Of a DNA stretch of 34,474 nt, positions 1,174 to 15,927 are shown piece after piece. The stretch is taken from the IMG/VR virus record IMGVR_UViG_3300035701_000152, positions 1 to 34,474 of that record; one strand, given 5' to 3'. Made by a program: the position numbers and the translations under genes. Below the pieces are notes generated by a model. The model was given only the letters and a program-made list of their open reading frames with translations, was not told the DNA's origin and searched no databases. Positions within the stretch are counted from its first letter, which is position 1. Every line of letters begins with the position of its first letter. This DNA is from a virus.

Positions 1174-1201
1174 CCTGATTTTGCTGTAACGCAAAATCAG
1201 G
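1174..1201. other. 28-bp 11-6-11 inverted repeat, candidate recombinase core site
   Basis: Perfect 11-bp arms CCTGATTTTGC (1174-1184) and GCAAAATCAGG (1191-1201) surround a 6-bp centre (TGTAAC). This is the geometry of dif/XerCD-type sites and many tyrosine-recombinase core sites. It covers the stop codon of the recombinase gene. No T-run follows on either strand, which argues against an ordinary terminator. The 14-mer GCCCTGATTTTGCT (1172-1185) recurs at 8015-8028. Confidence 0.45.
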
Positions 1202-1802
1202 TGTTTAATGAGTCAATTGCCATCTGTAAATCCTGAGTGTTCGGATGGGTGTAGACCTGGGTAGAGCTCAGCGAAGCATGACCTAATAGCTGCTGGACCA
1301 CTCGAATCGAACACTTACTCATAAGCCGGGTAGCAAAGGTGTGACGCAGCATATGCGGGTTGATTGGCCGGCCGATTGTGGTGATGCCTGCGGCTTTTGT
1401 CATTTGCTGAATACGACGGGAGGATAAGCACACGCCATTGTATGAGCCGGCAAAGGCTCGAGTCCAGGGTTTGTAACCAAAGGGCTGCCAAACGTTGAGC
1501 CATCTTTCCTGAATTGTATCGTGGAGACGGATAGTGACAGGTAAGCTGCGTTCAGTTTTAGTTTTAGTAATAGCGGCCCTGATTTGAATCATACCAACGG
1601 GGGACCCCAGGATGTGGAGGTCTCCTACGGTGAGCTGAATGACCTCGCCGACCCAGAGGCCGGCATCAAGCATAAGAAGCACAATCAGGCGGTCACGGAT
1701 GCGCAGCTCGTTGAGGACTCGTGACTTGTCCTGCCGATAGAAGTGGGCGAGAAATTTGGCCTGCTCATCGATTGTTAGTGATTTGATTTGACTTTTGCTC
1801 AT
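1197..1802 (-). CDS. Short tyrosine recombinase/integrase, catalytic Arg I replaced
   Basis: A catalytic-domain-only tyrosine recombinase of 201 residues, similar in size to FimB/FimE and lacking the usual N-terminal core-binding domain. Visible active-site elements are the beta-hairpin Lys ([12 protein letters not shown]), box [13 protein letters not shown] (H-x-x-R), [15 protein letters not shown] with the second His, and the Tyr nucleophile. The first catalytic Arg, normally in 'TGLRxxEL', is Trp here (DAGLWVGEV; codon TGG at 1653-1655, one base from CGG). The start at 1802 is preferred over ATG at 1811. AAGGA is 8 nt before 1802, and its ATGA overlaps the stop of the upstream small gene. 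It is probably the phage integrase or a repeat-excision enzyme, possibly disabled. Confidence 0.88.
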
Positions 1803-1912
1803 TTTAACCATCCTTTCTGACGAAGCTCTTTTATGGTCAGGCGTAGGGCGATGCGGGCGGCTATGCCTGCTATGAAGATTCCTATCAGCACGCCCGCAAT
1901 TAGATTACCCAT
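1799..1912 (-). CDS. 37-aa single-span membrane protein
   Basis: [20 protein letters not shown] begins a 37-residue protein with one hydrophobic helix and a basic tail ([14 protein letters not shown]). Its start overlaps the end of the 73-residue gene upstream, and its stop overlaps the ATG of the recombinase (ATGA). Upstream lies GGAGC. Role unknown. Confidence 0.6.
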
Positions 1913-8716: not shown

Positions 8717-9595
8717 ATGGCAAAAGAAAATAATTTCGCAATCGAATTAGTTGTGCCTGAAGTGCCCGTTAAGTGGAATTATGAAGATTCAGTTCGAAAG
8801 GTCAAACAGGCAATCTATAAATGGAAAACTTTAACCATAGAACTTGCAATCGAACTTTGGATAGCCAGAGAGATTTTATCGCAAAAAGCCGCTTTTCAAC
8901 AGCGCCAATCCGATGGGACTTTTGTCCCGGCGGATAAAACCTGGTCGGATTATTGTAAGGAAATCGGCTATTTTCGGCGGGTTGTTAATCGTTGGTTGGA
9001 ACGATGGTTTGAAAAGAAAAGTTTGCCGAAACCGGAAACACCGGAACTGCCTGAAGGAATTTTCAATGTCATTTACGCCGACCCGCCCTGGCAATATGAC
9101 AATGCCGGACTTGGCGGCGCCGCCGAAAAACATTATAAAACAATGGCTCTCGAAGAGATTAAAACCTTCAAGGACAAAAAGGGACGGACGATACAGGATT
9201 GCTGTGCGGACAATTCTATCATATATTTATGGGTGACAAATCCGTTTTTGGAAGATGCTTTTGAGATTTTGAGAGCCTGGGGATTTGATTATAAAACAAA
9301 TTTTTGCTGGGTGAAAGAGGGCAGGCCGACTTACGGCAAACTTTGTTTTTATATTTACGGTCAACACGAGCTTTTACTATTAGGAACTCGCGGAGCTTTT
9401 CTGCCGACAGGTGAAAAGTTTAATAGCATTATAAGCTCAAAAAAAACAATACACAGCAGAAAACCGGAAATTATTTATGACATAATCGAAAAGATGTATC
9501 CCGATGGCAAATATCTGGAATTGTTCCATAGGGGCATTAAAAGAAAGGGCTGGGAATGTTGGGGATATGAATCACGCAACGACAGGAATGAATAA
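8717..9595 (+). CDS. MT-A70 family DNA adenine N6-methyltransferase
   Basis: A 292-residue protein. The catalytic DPPW (residues 122-125, in FNVIYADPPWQYDN) is typical of MT-A70 enzymes that methylate adenine N6. SIIYLWVTNPFLEDAFEILR, GFDYKTNFCWVKEG and the late KPEIIYDIIEKMYPDGKYLE segment with LFHRG are further family landmarks. The N-terminal 110 residues (WNYEDSVRKVKQAIYKWKTL...) look like a helical DNA-binding extension. GGGAGG precedes the ATG by 5 nt. The next gene follows within a few bases. It probably protects phage DNA from host restriction or regulates it. Confidence 0.9.
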   Translation: MAKENNFAIELVVPEVPVKWNYEDSVRKVKQAIYKWKTLTIELAIELWIAREILSQKAAFQQRQSDGTFVPADKTWSDYCKEIGYFRRVVNRWLERWFEKKSLPKPETPELPEGIFNVIYADPPWQYDNAGLGGAAEKHYKTMALEEIKTFKDKKGRTIQDCCADNSIIYLWVTNPFLEDAFEILRAWGFDYKTNFCWVKEGRPTYGKLCFYIYGQHELLLLGTRGAFLPTGEKFNSIISSKKTIHSRKPEIIYDIIEKMYPDGKYLELFHRGIKRKGWECWGYESRNDRNE

Positions 9596-11897: not shown

Positions 11898-12064
11898 TGC
11901 TCATAATCGCTGGAATTCTGTTTGTGCTGGCAATGTTGTCCTGGTTTGTGGATAGGATGTTTGACAATGCCTCTGTGGACTTGCGGTGGGCAACGAGAAT
12001 TTTGATATTTTTGACATTGATTTTCATAGCCCTTAATTTGCTGGGGGAATTGATTGAACGATGA
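11897..12064 (+). CDS. 55-aa two-helix membrane protein (holin-like by topology)
   Basis: MLIIAGILFVLAMLSWFVDR is helix 1, then a charged turn, then ATRILIFLTLIFIALNLLGE as helix 2. The ATG at 11897 (TGATG overlap, AAGGG upstream) is preferred over GTG at 11879. Two-helix proteins of this size can be holins, and the stop overlaps the small terminase ATG. No sequence family supports lysis, and the lysozyme-like gene is 3.6 kb away. Confidence 0.5.
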   Translation: MLIIAGILFVLAMLSWFVDRMFDNASVDLRWATRILIFLTLIFIALNLLGELIER

Positions 12065-12555
12065 AAAAACAAAAACCTGATAAGCCAAAACCCAAAGTTG
12101 CCGATGTTAATGTTGAGCAGCTCCTCAAGACCCAACGGCAGGCGGCTGATTATGCCGATGTCAATACGCGCACAATCCGCCGATGGCTCAGCAATGGTAT
12201 GCCGACTTCGGCGGAAGGATATTACATCAAGGGTATTCTGGATTTTTTCAAAAACAATGAGAGCCGGGCGCCGAATGAAAACAGACAGCGATTTCTAAAA
12301 GCCGAGGCCGACCTGAAGGAGACAAAATCGGAACTTGCGAATATCGAATTGCGGATAAAGCGGGGTGAGCTTATCGAAAGCGCCGAAATTGAGGCGGGGC
12401 GGGTTGCCCGCATATTAGCGGCGAAGCGGGCGTTTCGTGGGCTTGGCCGGAATCTGGCGCTGCGACTGTCGAAAATGGGGGGCAATCCGAGCGGCATTCA
12501 GAAGGCAATAGATATAAAAATAAGGGAGATAATTGAAGAGTTTGCGAGAAATTGA
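12061..12555 (+). CDS. Terminase small subunit (Nu1-like)
   Basis: A 164-residue protein. A basic N-terminus is followed by a winged helix-turn-helix, LLKTQRQAADYADVNTRTIR then RWLSNGMP, as in Nu1-type terminase small subunits (about residues 21-50). A long charged helix (QRFLKAEADLKETKSELANI...ELRIKRGELI) for oligomerisation follows. The protein would bind the packaging site and hand DNA to the large subunit. It overlaps the upstream gene by ATGA. Two unrelated genes separate it from the large subunit gene, unlike the usual adjacency. Confidence 0.75.
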   Translation: MKKQKPDKPKPKVADVNVEQLLKTQRQAADYADVNTRTIRRWLSNGMPTSAEGYYIKGILDFFKNNESRAPNENRQRFLKAEADLKETKSELANIELRIKRGELIESAEIEAGRVARILAAKRAFRGLGRNLALRLSKMGGNPSGIQKAIDIKIREIIEEFARN

Positions 12556-12571
12556 AAATCTATATTCAATT

Positions 12572-12626
12572 AAGTTGCGTTTTGTTCAGTTGTGTTATGT
12601 TACGTTCCGTTGCGTTAAGTTAAGTT
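12572..12626 (+). repeat. NNGTT pentamer array 1 (11 units)
   Basis: Eleven consecutive perfect NNGTT units at exact 5-nt spacing. The NN are AA, GC, TT, CA, GT, AT, AC, CC, GC, AA, AA, then TTT. Two decayed units (ATATT, CAATT) may precede. It fills the gap between the small terminase stop and the ribosome site (GAAAGGAAG) of the next gene. Not coding and not self-complementary. Confidence 0.92.
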
Positions 12627-12647
12627 TTTAGAGAAAGGAAGTGTGTT

Positions 12648-13214
12648 ATGAAAACTGTAATAGTGGAATTGAAAAGTTTGACAGGATTGGTTTTTGGCAA
12701 ACCGGTTTTTGAGAAAAAAGAGACCGGCGAATCAGGGGAGGCGTTTGAAGAGCGGACGTGGATGCAGAGGTTGCACAAAAACGAAAATGGAGTATTCATT
12801 CCACCATTCGCCTTGAAAAACGCCCTTGTCAATTCGGCAAAATATCTTCAGCAATCAGTTCCAGGAAAAGGAAAATCGACCTACACAAAACTTTTTCTTG
12901 CCGGATTATTAGTGGCAGAGCCGATTTATTTGGGCAAGGACATCGAAAAGAAAATACAGAAATTGCCGATGTATGTCCCTTCAGACGGTAAGACCGGAGG
13001 CACAACAAGAGTGTGGCGACACTTTCCCTTGCTTCCCGAATGGCAGGGGACGACTACGATACTTTTGACAGACCCGATTTTGGAGGAAAAGCCAGATAAG
13101 GTCAAAGAATATCTTATCCACGCAGGCCAGCTGGTGGGATTGCTGACATTCAGGGTCGGCAAAGGCGGGTTATTCGGCAAGTTTGAAGTTATGAGCTTTA
13201 AGGTAACGAAATAA
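12648..13214 (+). CDS. Conserved phage protein of unknown function, weakly RAMP-like
   Basis: A 188-residue protein. Landmarks are ELKSLTGLVFGKPVF at the N-terminus, RTWMQRLH (37-43), GVFIPPFALKNALVNSAKYL (48-67), VPGKGKSTYTKLFLAGLLV, PSDGKTGGTTRVWRHFPLLP, and near the end LLTFRVGKGGLFGKFEV. I know related sequences from other phages only as hypothetical proteins. 'IPPFALKNAL' plus the late Gly-rich loop recall the IPGSSLKGAL and G-loop of RAMP proteins (Cas7/Cas5/Cas6 fold), which bind RNA. This is a weak pattern match. It lies between NNGTT arrays 1 and 2, so it may be the array-binding partner. GAAAGGAAG precedes the ATG. Confidence 0.7.
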   Translation: MKTVIVELKSLTGLVFGKPVFEKKETGESGEAFEERTWMQRLHKNENGVFIPPFALKNALVNSAKYLQQSVPGKGKSTYTKLFLAGLLVAEPIYLGKDIEKKIQKLPMYVPSDGKTGGTTRVWRHFPLLPEWQGTTTILLTDPILEEKPDKVKEYLIHAGQLVGLLTFRVGKGGLFGKFEVMSFKVTK

Positions 13215-13216
13215 AT

Positions 13217-13276
13217 AAGTTGAGTTTTGTTGAGTTGTGTTAGGTTGTGTTGAGTTAAGTTGCGTTAAGTTAAGTT
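13217..13276 (+). repeat. NNGTT pentamer array 2 (12 units)
   Basis: Twelve perfect NNGTT units. The NN are AA, GA, TT, GA, GT, AG, GT, GA, AA, GC, AA, AA, then TTTT. It begins 3 bases after the stop of the 188-residue gene. The first six and last three units line up with those of array 1, so the arrays are homologous. GGAGGGCAGG follows. Confidence 0.92.
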
Positions 13277-13303
13277 TTTTGGAGGGCAGGTAACGAAATA
13301 AAT

Positions 13304-13364
13304 GAGTTTCCGTTCTGTTGCGTTAAGTTATGTTCTGTTCAGTTAAGTTAAGTTAAGTTAAGTT
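13304..13364 (+). repeat. NNGTT pentamer array 3 (11 units plus one offset)
   Basis: Eleven in-phase units at 13310-13364 (NN: CC, CT, GC, AA, AT, CT, CA, AA, AA, AA, AA), then TTT. A twelfth GAGTT (13304-13308) is offset by one base. The sequence before it (GGTAACGAAATAAAT, 13289-13303) repeats the end of the 188-residue gene (13202-13216). This shows that array 3 arose by duplication of gene tail plus array. The next gene starts 42 bases downstream. Confidence 0.92.
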
Positions 13365-13406: not shown

Positions 13407-13937
13407 ATGAACGATGAAAAAACAGAAAGCAAGGCGTTTCCGTTTGAGCACGGACTGTCACCGGCATCCGCAAAACTGATGGAAAAACTAAAGACGGGTA
13501 AAATTGGGGACATTGTCACCGATGAGGAGCTGACAGGCATTTGCGGCAGGAATACAAAGGTCGGCGAAAAGGGCTATGCCAACCTTCAAACTGCTATAAG
13601 GCGAACCTTGCGGGATTACGGCCTTGTCTGGATGAGAATACCAAAGGCGTATGCGATAAAATGCCTTGACTCAAACGAAATTGTCGAAAGTCTGCCGGCA
13701 GATATGGAGCGGATAAGGCATTGCTCAAAAAAAGCCTTGAAGAGAGGGGCGCAAGTTGAGATAGGAAAAATTCCGGAAGATATGAAAATGCTTTTTTTCG
13801 CAAGGCAGGCGCAATTATCCGTAGTTGTTGTTGTAAGTGAAAATAAAACCACGAAACAGCTTGCGATAAGAGGCGCTACCGGCAAGTTCGACCAGCAAAA
13901 ATTACTTGAGGCGTTTATTGCTTCAGTTAAAACGTAA
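13407..13937 (+). CDS. Conserved phage protein of unknown function, possible winged-helix
   Basis: A 176-residue protein. MEKLKTGKIGDIVTDEELTG, then NLQTAIRRTLRDYGLVWMRI, reads like a winged-helix reader (helix, 'xIVTxEEL', recognition helix, wing with GLVW). After it come ECLDSNEIV-like and MERIRHCSKKALKRGAQVEI segments and a beta run LSVVVVVSE. I recall similar proteins in phages of other phyla without a function. AAAGGA lies 8 nt before the ATG, downstream of NNGTT array 3. It overlaps the start of the large terminase by 20-32 bases. Confidence 0.65.
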   Translation: MNDEKTESKAFPFEHGLSPASAKLMEKLKTGKIGDIVTDEELTGICGRNTKVGEKGYANLQTAIRRTLRDYGLVWMRIPKAYAIKCLDSNEIVESLPADMERIRHCSKKALKRGAQVEIGKIPEDMKMLFFARQAQLSVVVVVSENKTTKQLAIRGATGKFDQQKLLEAFIASVKT

Positions 13938-15927
13938 TACGAAAAAAAAAATATGGACAAATGCCGAGCGGCAGGCGTGGTCTCTGCCTGCGAAATTGAC
14001 AGTATCTGAATGGGCGGACAAGCATCGGATACTGGAATCTGGAACGGCGGAGCCGGGCCAGTGGCGGACAAGCCGGACGCCCTATCTACGGGGGATAATG
14101 GATTCCTTCTGCGACCCTGAAACAGAAATAGTCACCATTGTAAAGTCCCCGCAATCGGGCGGAACGGAGGCGCTGCTTAATACAATGGGTTACAGTATTT
14201 GCGAAGACCCCGGGCCCGGCCTGATGGTGATGCCCCGCCACGAGGAGGATTGCGGATATATGGCGGGACGCCTGAAAACAATGGTCGATGCCTCGCCGGA
14301 GCTGAAAAAACAGACCACTGGACGGATATGGGACTTGACAGGTTTTGAGTTCAGGTTCTCACGAATGACAGTGTATTTTTCCGGAGCCAATTCGCCCGCC
14401 GGCCTGGGAACGAAACCCATCCGCTATCTGTGGCTGGATGAGATTGACAAGTATCCGCAATTTGTTGGCAAGGAGGCGTCCCCGATTGACTTGGCGGAGA
14501 AGCGGACGATAACATTTTGGGACAGGAAAATCGTCCAAACATCGACGCCCACCACAACAGATGGCAACATCTGGACAAAATTCAAAAGAAGCTCTAAGCA
14601 TCACTATTACATTCCCTGCCCCCATTGCGGAGAATATCAGGTCTGGATTTTCAATGAACCGGATAGCAGGGAACCGCGATTAAGAATTGCAAAGGAATTG
14701 CGGGACCCCGATGTAATCAGAAACACGCCCGGTTGTGTTTGGTATGAATGTAAGTTTTGCAGGGGCAGGATTGACGAAACCGAAAAGGACGGACTTGTCG
14801 CAAGGGGTGAATGGCTGCCAGACAAGTTTGCAAATGAAATCCTGAAACTGGCAAAAAAAGAGCACGCCAGCATTATGAATATCAAAAGAGAATTCAATTA
14901 CAACAAACGGCGTATCGGCTTTCAATACAATGCCCTGATAAGTCCCTGGGTATCGTGGACGGAGGTTATGGCCGAATGGTTCGAGGCCAATACGGAGGAG
15001 GGAGTGACAGCAGGCAAACTTCTGGATTTTATGAATGCCATTCTTGCCGAGCCGTATGCCGAGACAATGGTCGAAGTCGCGGCGGAAGGATTGAGAAAAA
15101 ACATCGGGACATTCTCACGTGGAACTGTTCCTGACTGGTGCAAGATACTTGTTGGCGGTGCCGATTATCACGAGGATATTCGCGGACAAGTTCGCATCGA
15201 CTTTGAAGTTCGCGGATTCGGATATGGGGAGAGAAATTATGTCATAAGCTGCGGCTCGGTCTATTCCTGGCAGGAGCTTGAAGACGAAATCCTGCTGCAC
15301 TCATTTCCCTGGGCGAATCCCGACAGAAAAGAGCCGGAACTTGCAGTCATACAACTATTTATTGATTCCGGTTTCAAGCCGGATGAGGTCTATGAATTCT
15401 GTCGGCGGTATTTTCCGCTTTGTATGCCGACAAAAGGATTGCCTGGCAGACAGCAAAGAGGGGGCCCGCTTACTATATCGAGTTTGGAAAAAATAACAGC
15501 CGAAAGAAAAGCAAAGTTTCGTGGCATACAACTTGCGCTTTTGGATGTTTCATTTTTCAAGGACAAGGTTCATAACTGGGCATCACGCGCCGCCGGGACT
15601 CCTGGCTCAACGGAATATTTTGCCGAGATTCCAGACTATTATTTCCGTGAATTCACGAATGAGCGCAAGACAAGGATTCGTGGCAGATATGGACAAGTAA
15701 CCTGGCAATGGCGGCCCGTGAGTGGCGGGGCGCAGGTGCATTTTCTCGACACGGCGGTCAACGCGGCGGCAGCGGCCTTCTATAAGCGGGTGCAATATAT
15801 GCGAGCGCCACAAGAACAAGCCGGCAAGCCGATACCGGCGGCATTGATAAGGGCAAAACCGGTAAAATTGATGGTAAGAGAAAAGCCTGAGGGCAAAGGG
15901 TTCCTGGATAATTTGCCGGAATTGTAA
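13918..15927 (+). CDS. Terminase large subunit (GpA family)
   Basis: About 669 residues. The ATPase domain has WTNAERQAWSLPAKLTVSEW and RTPYLRGIMDSF (GpA-type adaptor lead-in), Walker A-like VKSPQSGGTEALLNT (about 75-88), Walker B YLWLDEIDKYP (about 170-180) and a motor coupling segment (IVQTSTPTT). A CPHCGEYQ ... CKFC zinc knuckle occurs in the middle. The nuclease domain carries Asp at VGGADYHEDIRG and IQLFIDSGFKPDEV and HFLDTAVNAAAAA. No ATG is usable. TTG at 13918 has GAGG at 6 nt; TTG at 13906 also fits. It translocates DNA into proheads and cuts it. Confidence 0.92.
   Translation: MLQLKRNTKKKIWTNAERQAWSLPAKLTVSEWADKHRILESGTAEPGQWRTSRTPYLRGIMDSFCDPETEIVTIVKSPQSGGTEALLNTMGYSICEDPGPGLMVMPRHEEDCGYMAGRLKTMVDASPELKKQTTGRIWDLTGFEFRFSRMTVYFSGANSPAGLGTKPIRYLWLDEIDKYPQFVGKEASPIDLAEKRTITFWDRKIVQTSTPTTTDGNIWTKFKRSSKHHYYIPCPHCGEYQVWIFNEPDSREPRLRIAKELRDPDVIRNTPGCVWYECKFCRGRIDETEKDGLVARGEWLPDKFANEILKLAKKEHASIMNIKREFNYNKRRIGFQYNALISPWVSWTEVMAEWFEANTEEGVTAGKLLDFMNAILAEPYAETMVEVAAEGLRKNIGTFSRGTVPDWCKILVGGADYHEDIRGQVRIDFEVRGFGYGERNYVISCGSVYSWQELEDEILLHSFPWANPDRKEPELAVIQLFIDSGFKPDEVYEFCRRYFPLCMPTKGLPGRQQRGGPLTISSLEKITAERKAKFRGIQLALLDVSFFKDKVHNWASRAAGTPGSTEYFAEIPDYYFREFTNERKTRIRGRYGQVTWQWRPVSGGAQVHFLDTAVNAAAAAFYKRVQYMRAPQEQAGKPIPAALIRAKPVKLMVREKPEGKGFLDNLPEL

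Follow-up and report, generated by a model that had tools for sequence, protein, structure and literature searches.

A probable VIPR cassette with GUU-based guide arrays between the terminase genes of a phage

We found that a 34,474-nucleotide stretch of viral DNA (the window, which throughout means this whole stretch) carries between its two terminase genes what is, with a probability of about 0.92, a VIPR cassette in the order vrRNA1 - vipr - vrRNA2 - vrRNA3 - vap, with the arrays serving as vrRNA guides on a GUU scaffold (Table 1). This assignment follows from the presence of a Vipr homologue between the arrays and of a next gene that belongs to a Vipr-adjoining family. VIPR (Viral Interference Programmable Repeat) is a phage-borne CRISPR relative, reported in 2026, that is RNA-guided with a gapped code and has been proposed as an ancestor of CRISPR (PMC13142463). 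In vrRNAs, a fixed GGY triplet alternates with a variable NN pair; the NN pairs read double-stranded DNA, and for each pair one base, most often that at the wobble position, is passed over; the known guides are aimed at competing phages and prophages, and vap accessory genes adjoin vipr (PMC13142463). In the window, the fixed triplet is GUU, not GGY. The system is most likely of a kind already known, with GUU as a variant on the GGY of the characterised systems. The published account also allows "a related consensus" besides GGY (fig. S17; PMC13142463), so that GUU marks a variant and is compatible with VIPR membership; GUU may possibly lie within the related consensus already.

Table 1. Predicted features of the cassette, its neighbours and one guide match (positions are those of the window unless a contig is named).
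Feature	Position	Strand	Basis or detail
Tyrosine recombinase, XerC-like	1197-1811	-	8e-29
MT-A70-type DNA methyltransferase	8717-9595		3.4e-24
Terminase small subunit, left neighbour, outside the VIPR system	12061..12555	+	phrog_57 5.7e-15
vrRNA 1 guide array (predicted)	12572..12626	+	11 x NNGUU, exact run search
vipr, RAMP protein, 188 aa	12648..13214	+	profile match to PDB 36pp, AF2 model, Foldseek
vrRNA 2 guide array (predicted)	13217..13276	+	12 x NNGUU, exact run search
vrRNA 3 guide array (predicted)	13304..13364	+	11 x NNGUU from 13310
vap accessory gene (predicted), 176 aa	13407..13937	+	family beside Vipr, hhalign to SUSP1/LESphi2 second genes, AF2
Terminase large subunit, right neighbour, outside the VIPR system	13906..15927	+	GpA_ATPase 2.5e-62, GpA_nuclease 5e-43
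Array 2 match	L327:2732-2760, L328:8491-8519		peptide KDFDVSVENA, in frame, skipped base at wobble

A preliminary description of this DNA had reported uninterrupted NNGTT arrays of 11, 12 and 11 units on the + strand, each array ending in AAGTT-AAGTT-TTT, and the exact run search bore out the counts and coordinates; the endings were borne out as well. The NN pairs of array 1 are, in order, AA, GC, TT, CA, GT, AT, AC, CC, GC, AA and AA, and those of array 2 are AA, GA, TT, GA, GT, AG, GT, GA, AA, GC, AA and AA; array 3 is preceded by GAGTT at 13304-13308 and one extra base, out of register. Each array contains 6-8 distinct NN pairs, with GTT exact, and no further NNGTT run of four or more units is present on either strand of the window. 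When 200 copies of the window were generated by a first-order Markov model, the longest run of GTT at a spacing of 5 was 2 (136 copies) or 3 (64 copies), and runs of 11 are expected by chance about 1e-15 times. The same leader, AACGAAATAAAT, stands in front of both array 2 and array 3, which suggests that the array 2/array 3 unit was duplicated. The arrays fold no better than their shuffles (z = 1.21, -1.07 and -0.06), in agreement with the earlier observation that they lack self-pairing. The arrays had also been placed in gaps just before ribosome sites; this holds for arrays 1 and 3, which lie shortly before the starts of vipr and vap, and not for array 2, which is followed by array 3. We found no family match in an Rfam scan of the window locus, no promoter-like sites above chance, and no CRISPR repeat-spacer array among the tandem repeats of the window.

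The gene at 12648, one of those proposed earlier for binding tests, encodes a Vipr protein as judged by profile comparison: a Vipr family profile (24 members) matches the solved Vipr of phage SUSP1 (PDB 36pp) with E = 8.8e-38, and the same profile matches CRISPR Csm5 weakly (E about 0.01). The AF2 model of the product has a mean pLDDT of 91.9 and is predicted to adopt a RAMP fold, since Foldseek retrieves RAMP subunits of the Csm3/Cas7 type from type III and type VII CRISPR complexes (best E 2.9e-7). The invariant C-terminal residues of the family are G160, G164, R169 and G177. Among ten proteins scanned around the locus, we found no cas families. The family at 13407 adjoins Vipr in 76 loci (iterative search, SUSP1 included). 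To keep the comparison with SUSP1 non-circular, we relied on a profile from which SUSP1 was excluded; by hhalign, this profile matches the second gene of SUSP1, which follows vipr, with E 3.6e-5 (prob 72) and the second gene of LESphi2 with E 5.3e-6 (prob 86). These alignments point to moderate homology between the 13407 product and the SUSP1 second-gene product. In the AF2 model of the 13407 product (pLDDT 81.9), the N-terminal part is winged-helix-like and long helices come after it; the fold matches of this model are weak. Pfam, PADLOC and NCBIfam family searches with Vipr and Vap returned nothing useful.

The window phage is probably temperate, as the XerC-like tyrosine recombinase suggests. 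Its terminase small subunit has 164 aa and that of L057 and L247, where the adjacent DNA is nearly identical, has 208 aa, reflecting an internal deletion or insertion. The packaging region also houses a Vipr cassette in an unrelated phage (L085:2398-8632), where it is flanked by genes for a T4-type terminase large subunit and a P22-like portal, and from these two cases the packaging region looks as if it were a favoured place for VIPR. The Rfam match in L085, int-alpA, is unrelated, as is a HEARO RNA (Rfam RF02033) at L054:9984-10218, a few kb upstream of a GTT VIPR locus.

In two phages, L246 and L247, the DNA around the locus is about 95-99% identical to that of the window and the array flanks are kept. 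The AAGTTAAGTTTTT 3' end is common to 8/8 arrays of the window, L246 and L247, and GTT is retained in L246 and L247 with the exception of one ATT unit in L247. In contrast, NN identity, summed over eight 3'-anchored array comparisons among the three phages, is 43/162 (26.5%), about the random level. Unit counts also differ (11/12/11 in the window, 19/15 in L246 and 17/10/14 in L247); the counterparts of array 1 have 19 units in L246 and 17 in L247, with different NN. GTT being kept, NN being at random level and counts being changed between near-identical phages is the behaviour expected of guides, and on this comparison of sequences the letters of the guides are the variable NN pairs, which have been rewritten from one of these phages to another. 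The preliminary description had proposed looking in relatives for GTT being kept while NN drifts, which is the pattern found here; equal drift at the two kinds of position, which it had named as evidence against its proposal, is contradicted by the random-level NN and conserved GTT of L246 and L247.

NN usage was compared with codon statistics across 119 arrays (1230 pairs). Codon positions 1-2 (either strand) describe NN usage best, with an advantage of 32.7 bits over positions 2-3 (P 0.004, locus bootstrap) and of 31.7 bits over genome dinucleotides (P 0.004). With GTT arrays alone, the advantage is 15.4 bits over positions 2-3 (P 0.006) and 11.2 bits over genome dinucleotides (P 0.041). This fit accords with the published wobble-skip rule (PMC13142463) and is supportive rather than decisive, because the codon frequencies derive from the array phages themselves and not from known targets. 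Decoded guides gave 0 matches in the viral collection for window array 1 (9 units), 0 and 0 for the L246 arrays (10 units each) and 0 for the L247 array, and a shuffled decoy guide gave 0 matches there. Window array 2 (10 units) has a 20/20-base match with 1-nt skips in a single structural gene present in two related contigs (L327 and L328; Table 1), which we call marine T4-like from their protein sequences and not from a database label. We do not claim this match as a target, because five guide patterns were tried, the ecology looks unrelated and 20 bases is not far beyond chance; the gene is possibly a target of array 2, a lead only, or a chance match. No decoded guide matches were found in the kin genomes. 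When we scored 171 arrays at skips of 0-3 against both strands of 5.5 Mb, there was no excess at any skip, this being too little sequence; the perfect matches were, at skip 3, arrays on themselves and, at skip 1, only L327, which had already been selected. Thus no convincing natural target for the window guides was found in the viral collection, the kin genomes or the 5.5 Mb.

To see how the arrays are distributed, we scanned the viral collection for GTT occurring eight times at period 5 and called an array degenerate when it had five or more kinds of NN. Among the matches listed, there are at least dozens of degenerate-NN loci, many with several arrays. Clustering of the proteins near 47 degenerate-array loci gave a single dominant family, Vipr, encoded next to the array in 27/47 (window included; among the matches listed). 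In an independent test set of 76 viral Vipr loci, picked by protein alone, 60 have, no more than 1.5 kb from vipr, a period-5 array in which the triplet is fixed and NN varies; only 3 of the 76 have one farther away than 2.5 kb, and the shuffled flanks of the 76 loci contain 0 period-5 arrays. Where the arrays at Vipr loci are of the GTT type, the GTT strand is the vipr-sense strand. Multi-array loci have several to a dozen arrays downstream of genes, with constant 6-48-nt elements between them, for example GACAACCGCTTTTCCG between CAC arrays (L309) and AAGTCG (L080). At L309:2628-4900, twelve CAC-type guide arrays, most with an identical 16-nt element between them, look like VIPR guides arranged compactly in the manner of a CRISPR array, and several contigs encode a Vipr identical to that of L309. 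In Vibrio phage 1.266.O (L323:2486-3076 and flanks), the Vipr homologue is accompanied by an atypical GCA/GCR period-5 array. Degenerate NNGTT runs that are antisense within a family of genes of 273-291 aa at seven loci (L023, L030, L048, L059, L081, L100 and L112), which perhaps encodes a repetitive protein, were set aside as a separate phenomenon, and so were plain pentamer repeats.

Alternatively, the GUU arrays, once bound by Vipr, could work in cis, forming a TRAP-like leader by which vipr, vap and the terminase gene are controlled in their translation or transcription, with no guides acting in trans. Arrays 1 and 3 do stop shortly before the start codons of vipr and vap, and the 11-12 units of the arrays resemble TRAP sites, where a protein oligomer likewise sits on regularly spaced RNA triplets. 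The spacer letters of TRAP sites carry no information. A cis site would need no rewriting of NN, yet near-identical phages differ wholly in NN, with counts from 10 to 19; the many loci with several to a dozen arrays downstream of genes and the codon statistics of the NN pairs also argue against a leader, and the arrays of the studied relative serve as guides (PMC13142463). We therefore consider cis control highly unlikely. The parallel with TRAP drawn in the preliminary description is an analogy only: Vipr is an unrelated protein, the triplets differ ((G/U)AG in TRAP, GUU in the window), and no TRAP homologue is among the ten neighbouring proteins scanned.

That the arrays form a pac/cos site recognised by the terminase small subunit, which had also been suggested, is exceedingly improbable. 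Their position between terS and terL and the VIPR-type cassette in the packaging region of the unrelated phage L085 would fit such a site. However, the arrays track Vipr and not one terminase family: the large-terminase family of this phage is near arrays in only 3/47 degenerate-array loci, as compared to 27/47 for Vipr (among the matches listed). There are also several arrays per phage, with different NN, and arrays occur beside DNA ligase (SUSP1) or cI/cro (LESphi2) as well.

Among the matches listed, almost all cellular-genome matches to the GTT period-5 pattern are plain pentamer repeats. Although plain repeats having at most three NN types make up the majority of the genome-collection matches listed, functionless pentanucleotide slippage is scarcely credible for the window arrays, given their 6-8 distinct NN with exact GTT, the sense-strand bias, the tight link to Vipr, the absence of arrays from shuffled flanks and the conservation pattern, which contradicts it.

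If the cassette is VIPR, as we favour, the published system suggests how it would work. The arrays would be transcribed, and Vipr subunits would bind successively along the RNA, each holding GUU while NN remains free. These free pairs would then base-pair with double-stranded DNA, passing over one target base for each pair, in most cases the codon wobble, and the bound complex may repress genes of competing phages or prophages with the help of Vap. The earlier proposal of a ring- or filament-forming protein that reads GUU anticipated part of this, in that sense-strand RNA and an oligomeric GUU reader fit the RAMP protein Vipr, and it missed the information in NN.

The closest known form is type II VIPR, described from Escherichia phage SUSP1 and a Pseudomonas fulva prophage and represented by PDB 36pp (PMC13142463). 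Like these, the window system is phage-borne, has a homologous Vipr RAMP and a second gene related to that of SUSP1, and has arrays with hypervariable NN both upstream and downstream of vipr; type II arrays have 9-16 pentamer units and those of the window and its kin 10-19. In contrast to type II VIPR, the triplet is GUU rather than GGY, the arrays have only the common AAGTTAAGTTTTT end and no detected structured 3' tail, vap lies downstream of the arrays instead of directly after vipr, and the cassette is between terminase genes. With the class 1 CRISPR-Cas RAMPs (Csm3/Csm5/Cas7), the system shares the RAMP fold and a predicted assembly along the guide RNA; however, the locus has one small RAMP, no cas operon among the ten proteins scanned around it and no palindromic repeats with spacers, and VIPR reads in a gapped 2-nt manner where CRISPR pairs continuously.

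Fixed triplets vary across the family. In other Vipr relatives, the triplets on the vipr-sense strand are GGC, GAC, CGC, CAC, CUC, GUC and GGU. Parsimony requires at least 23 triplet switches on a tree built from 104 Vipr proteins, in which long branches make details unsure. The GTT label switches 8 times on this tree, at least 4 of them forced by well-supported branches, with GTT loci having been picked partly for GTT. We tentatively suggest, at rather less than even odds, that the triplet is an evolving recognition code, in which repeated switches, with GUU arising more than once, give mutually incompatible Vipr-vrRNA pairs, such that phages sharing a host are barred from using or poisoning the guides of others. 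If this is true, switchable triplets would provide orthogonal guide systems as tools.

Taken together, the window locus indicates that the fixed triplet of VIPR can change without loss of the code. The window and its kin offer GUU systems of natural origin that carry at least three guides, and the existence of near-identical phages with swapped guides makes triplet specificity and guide turnover directly testable.
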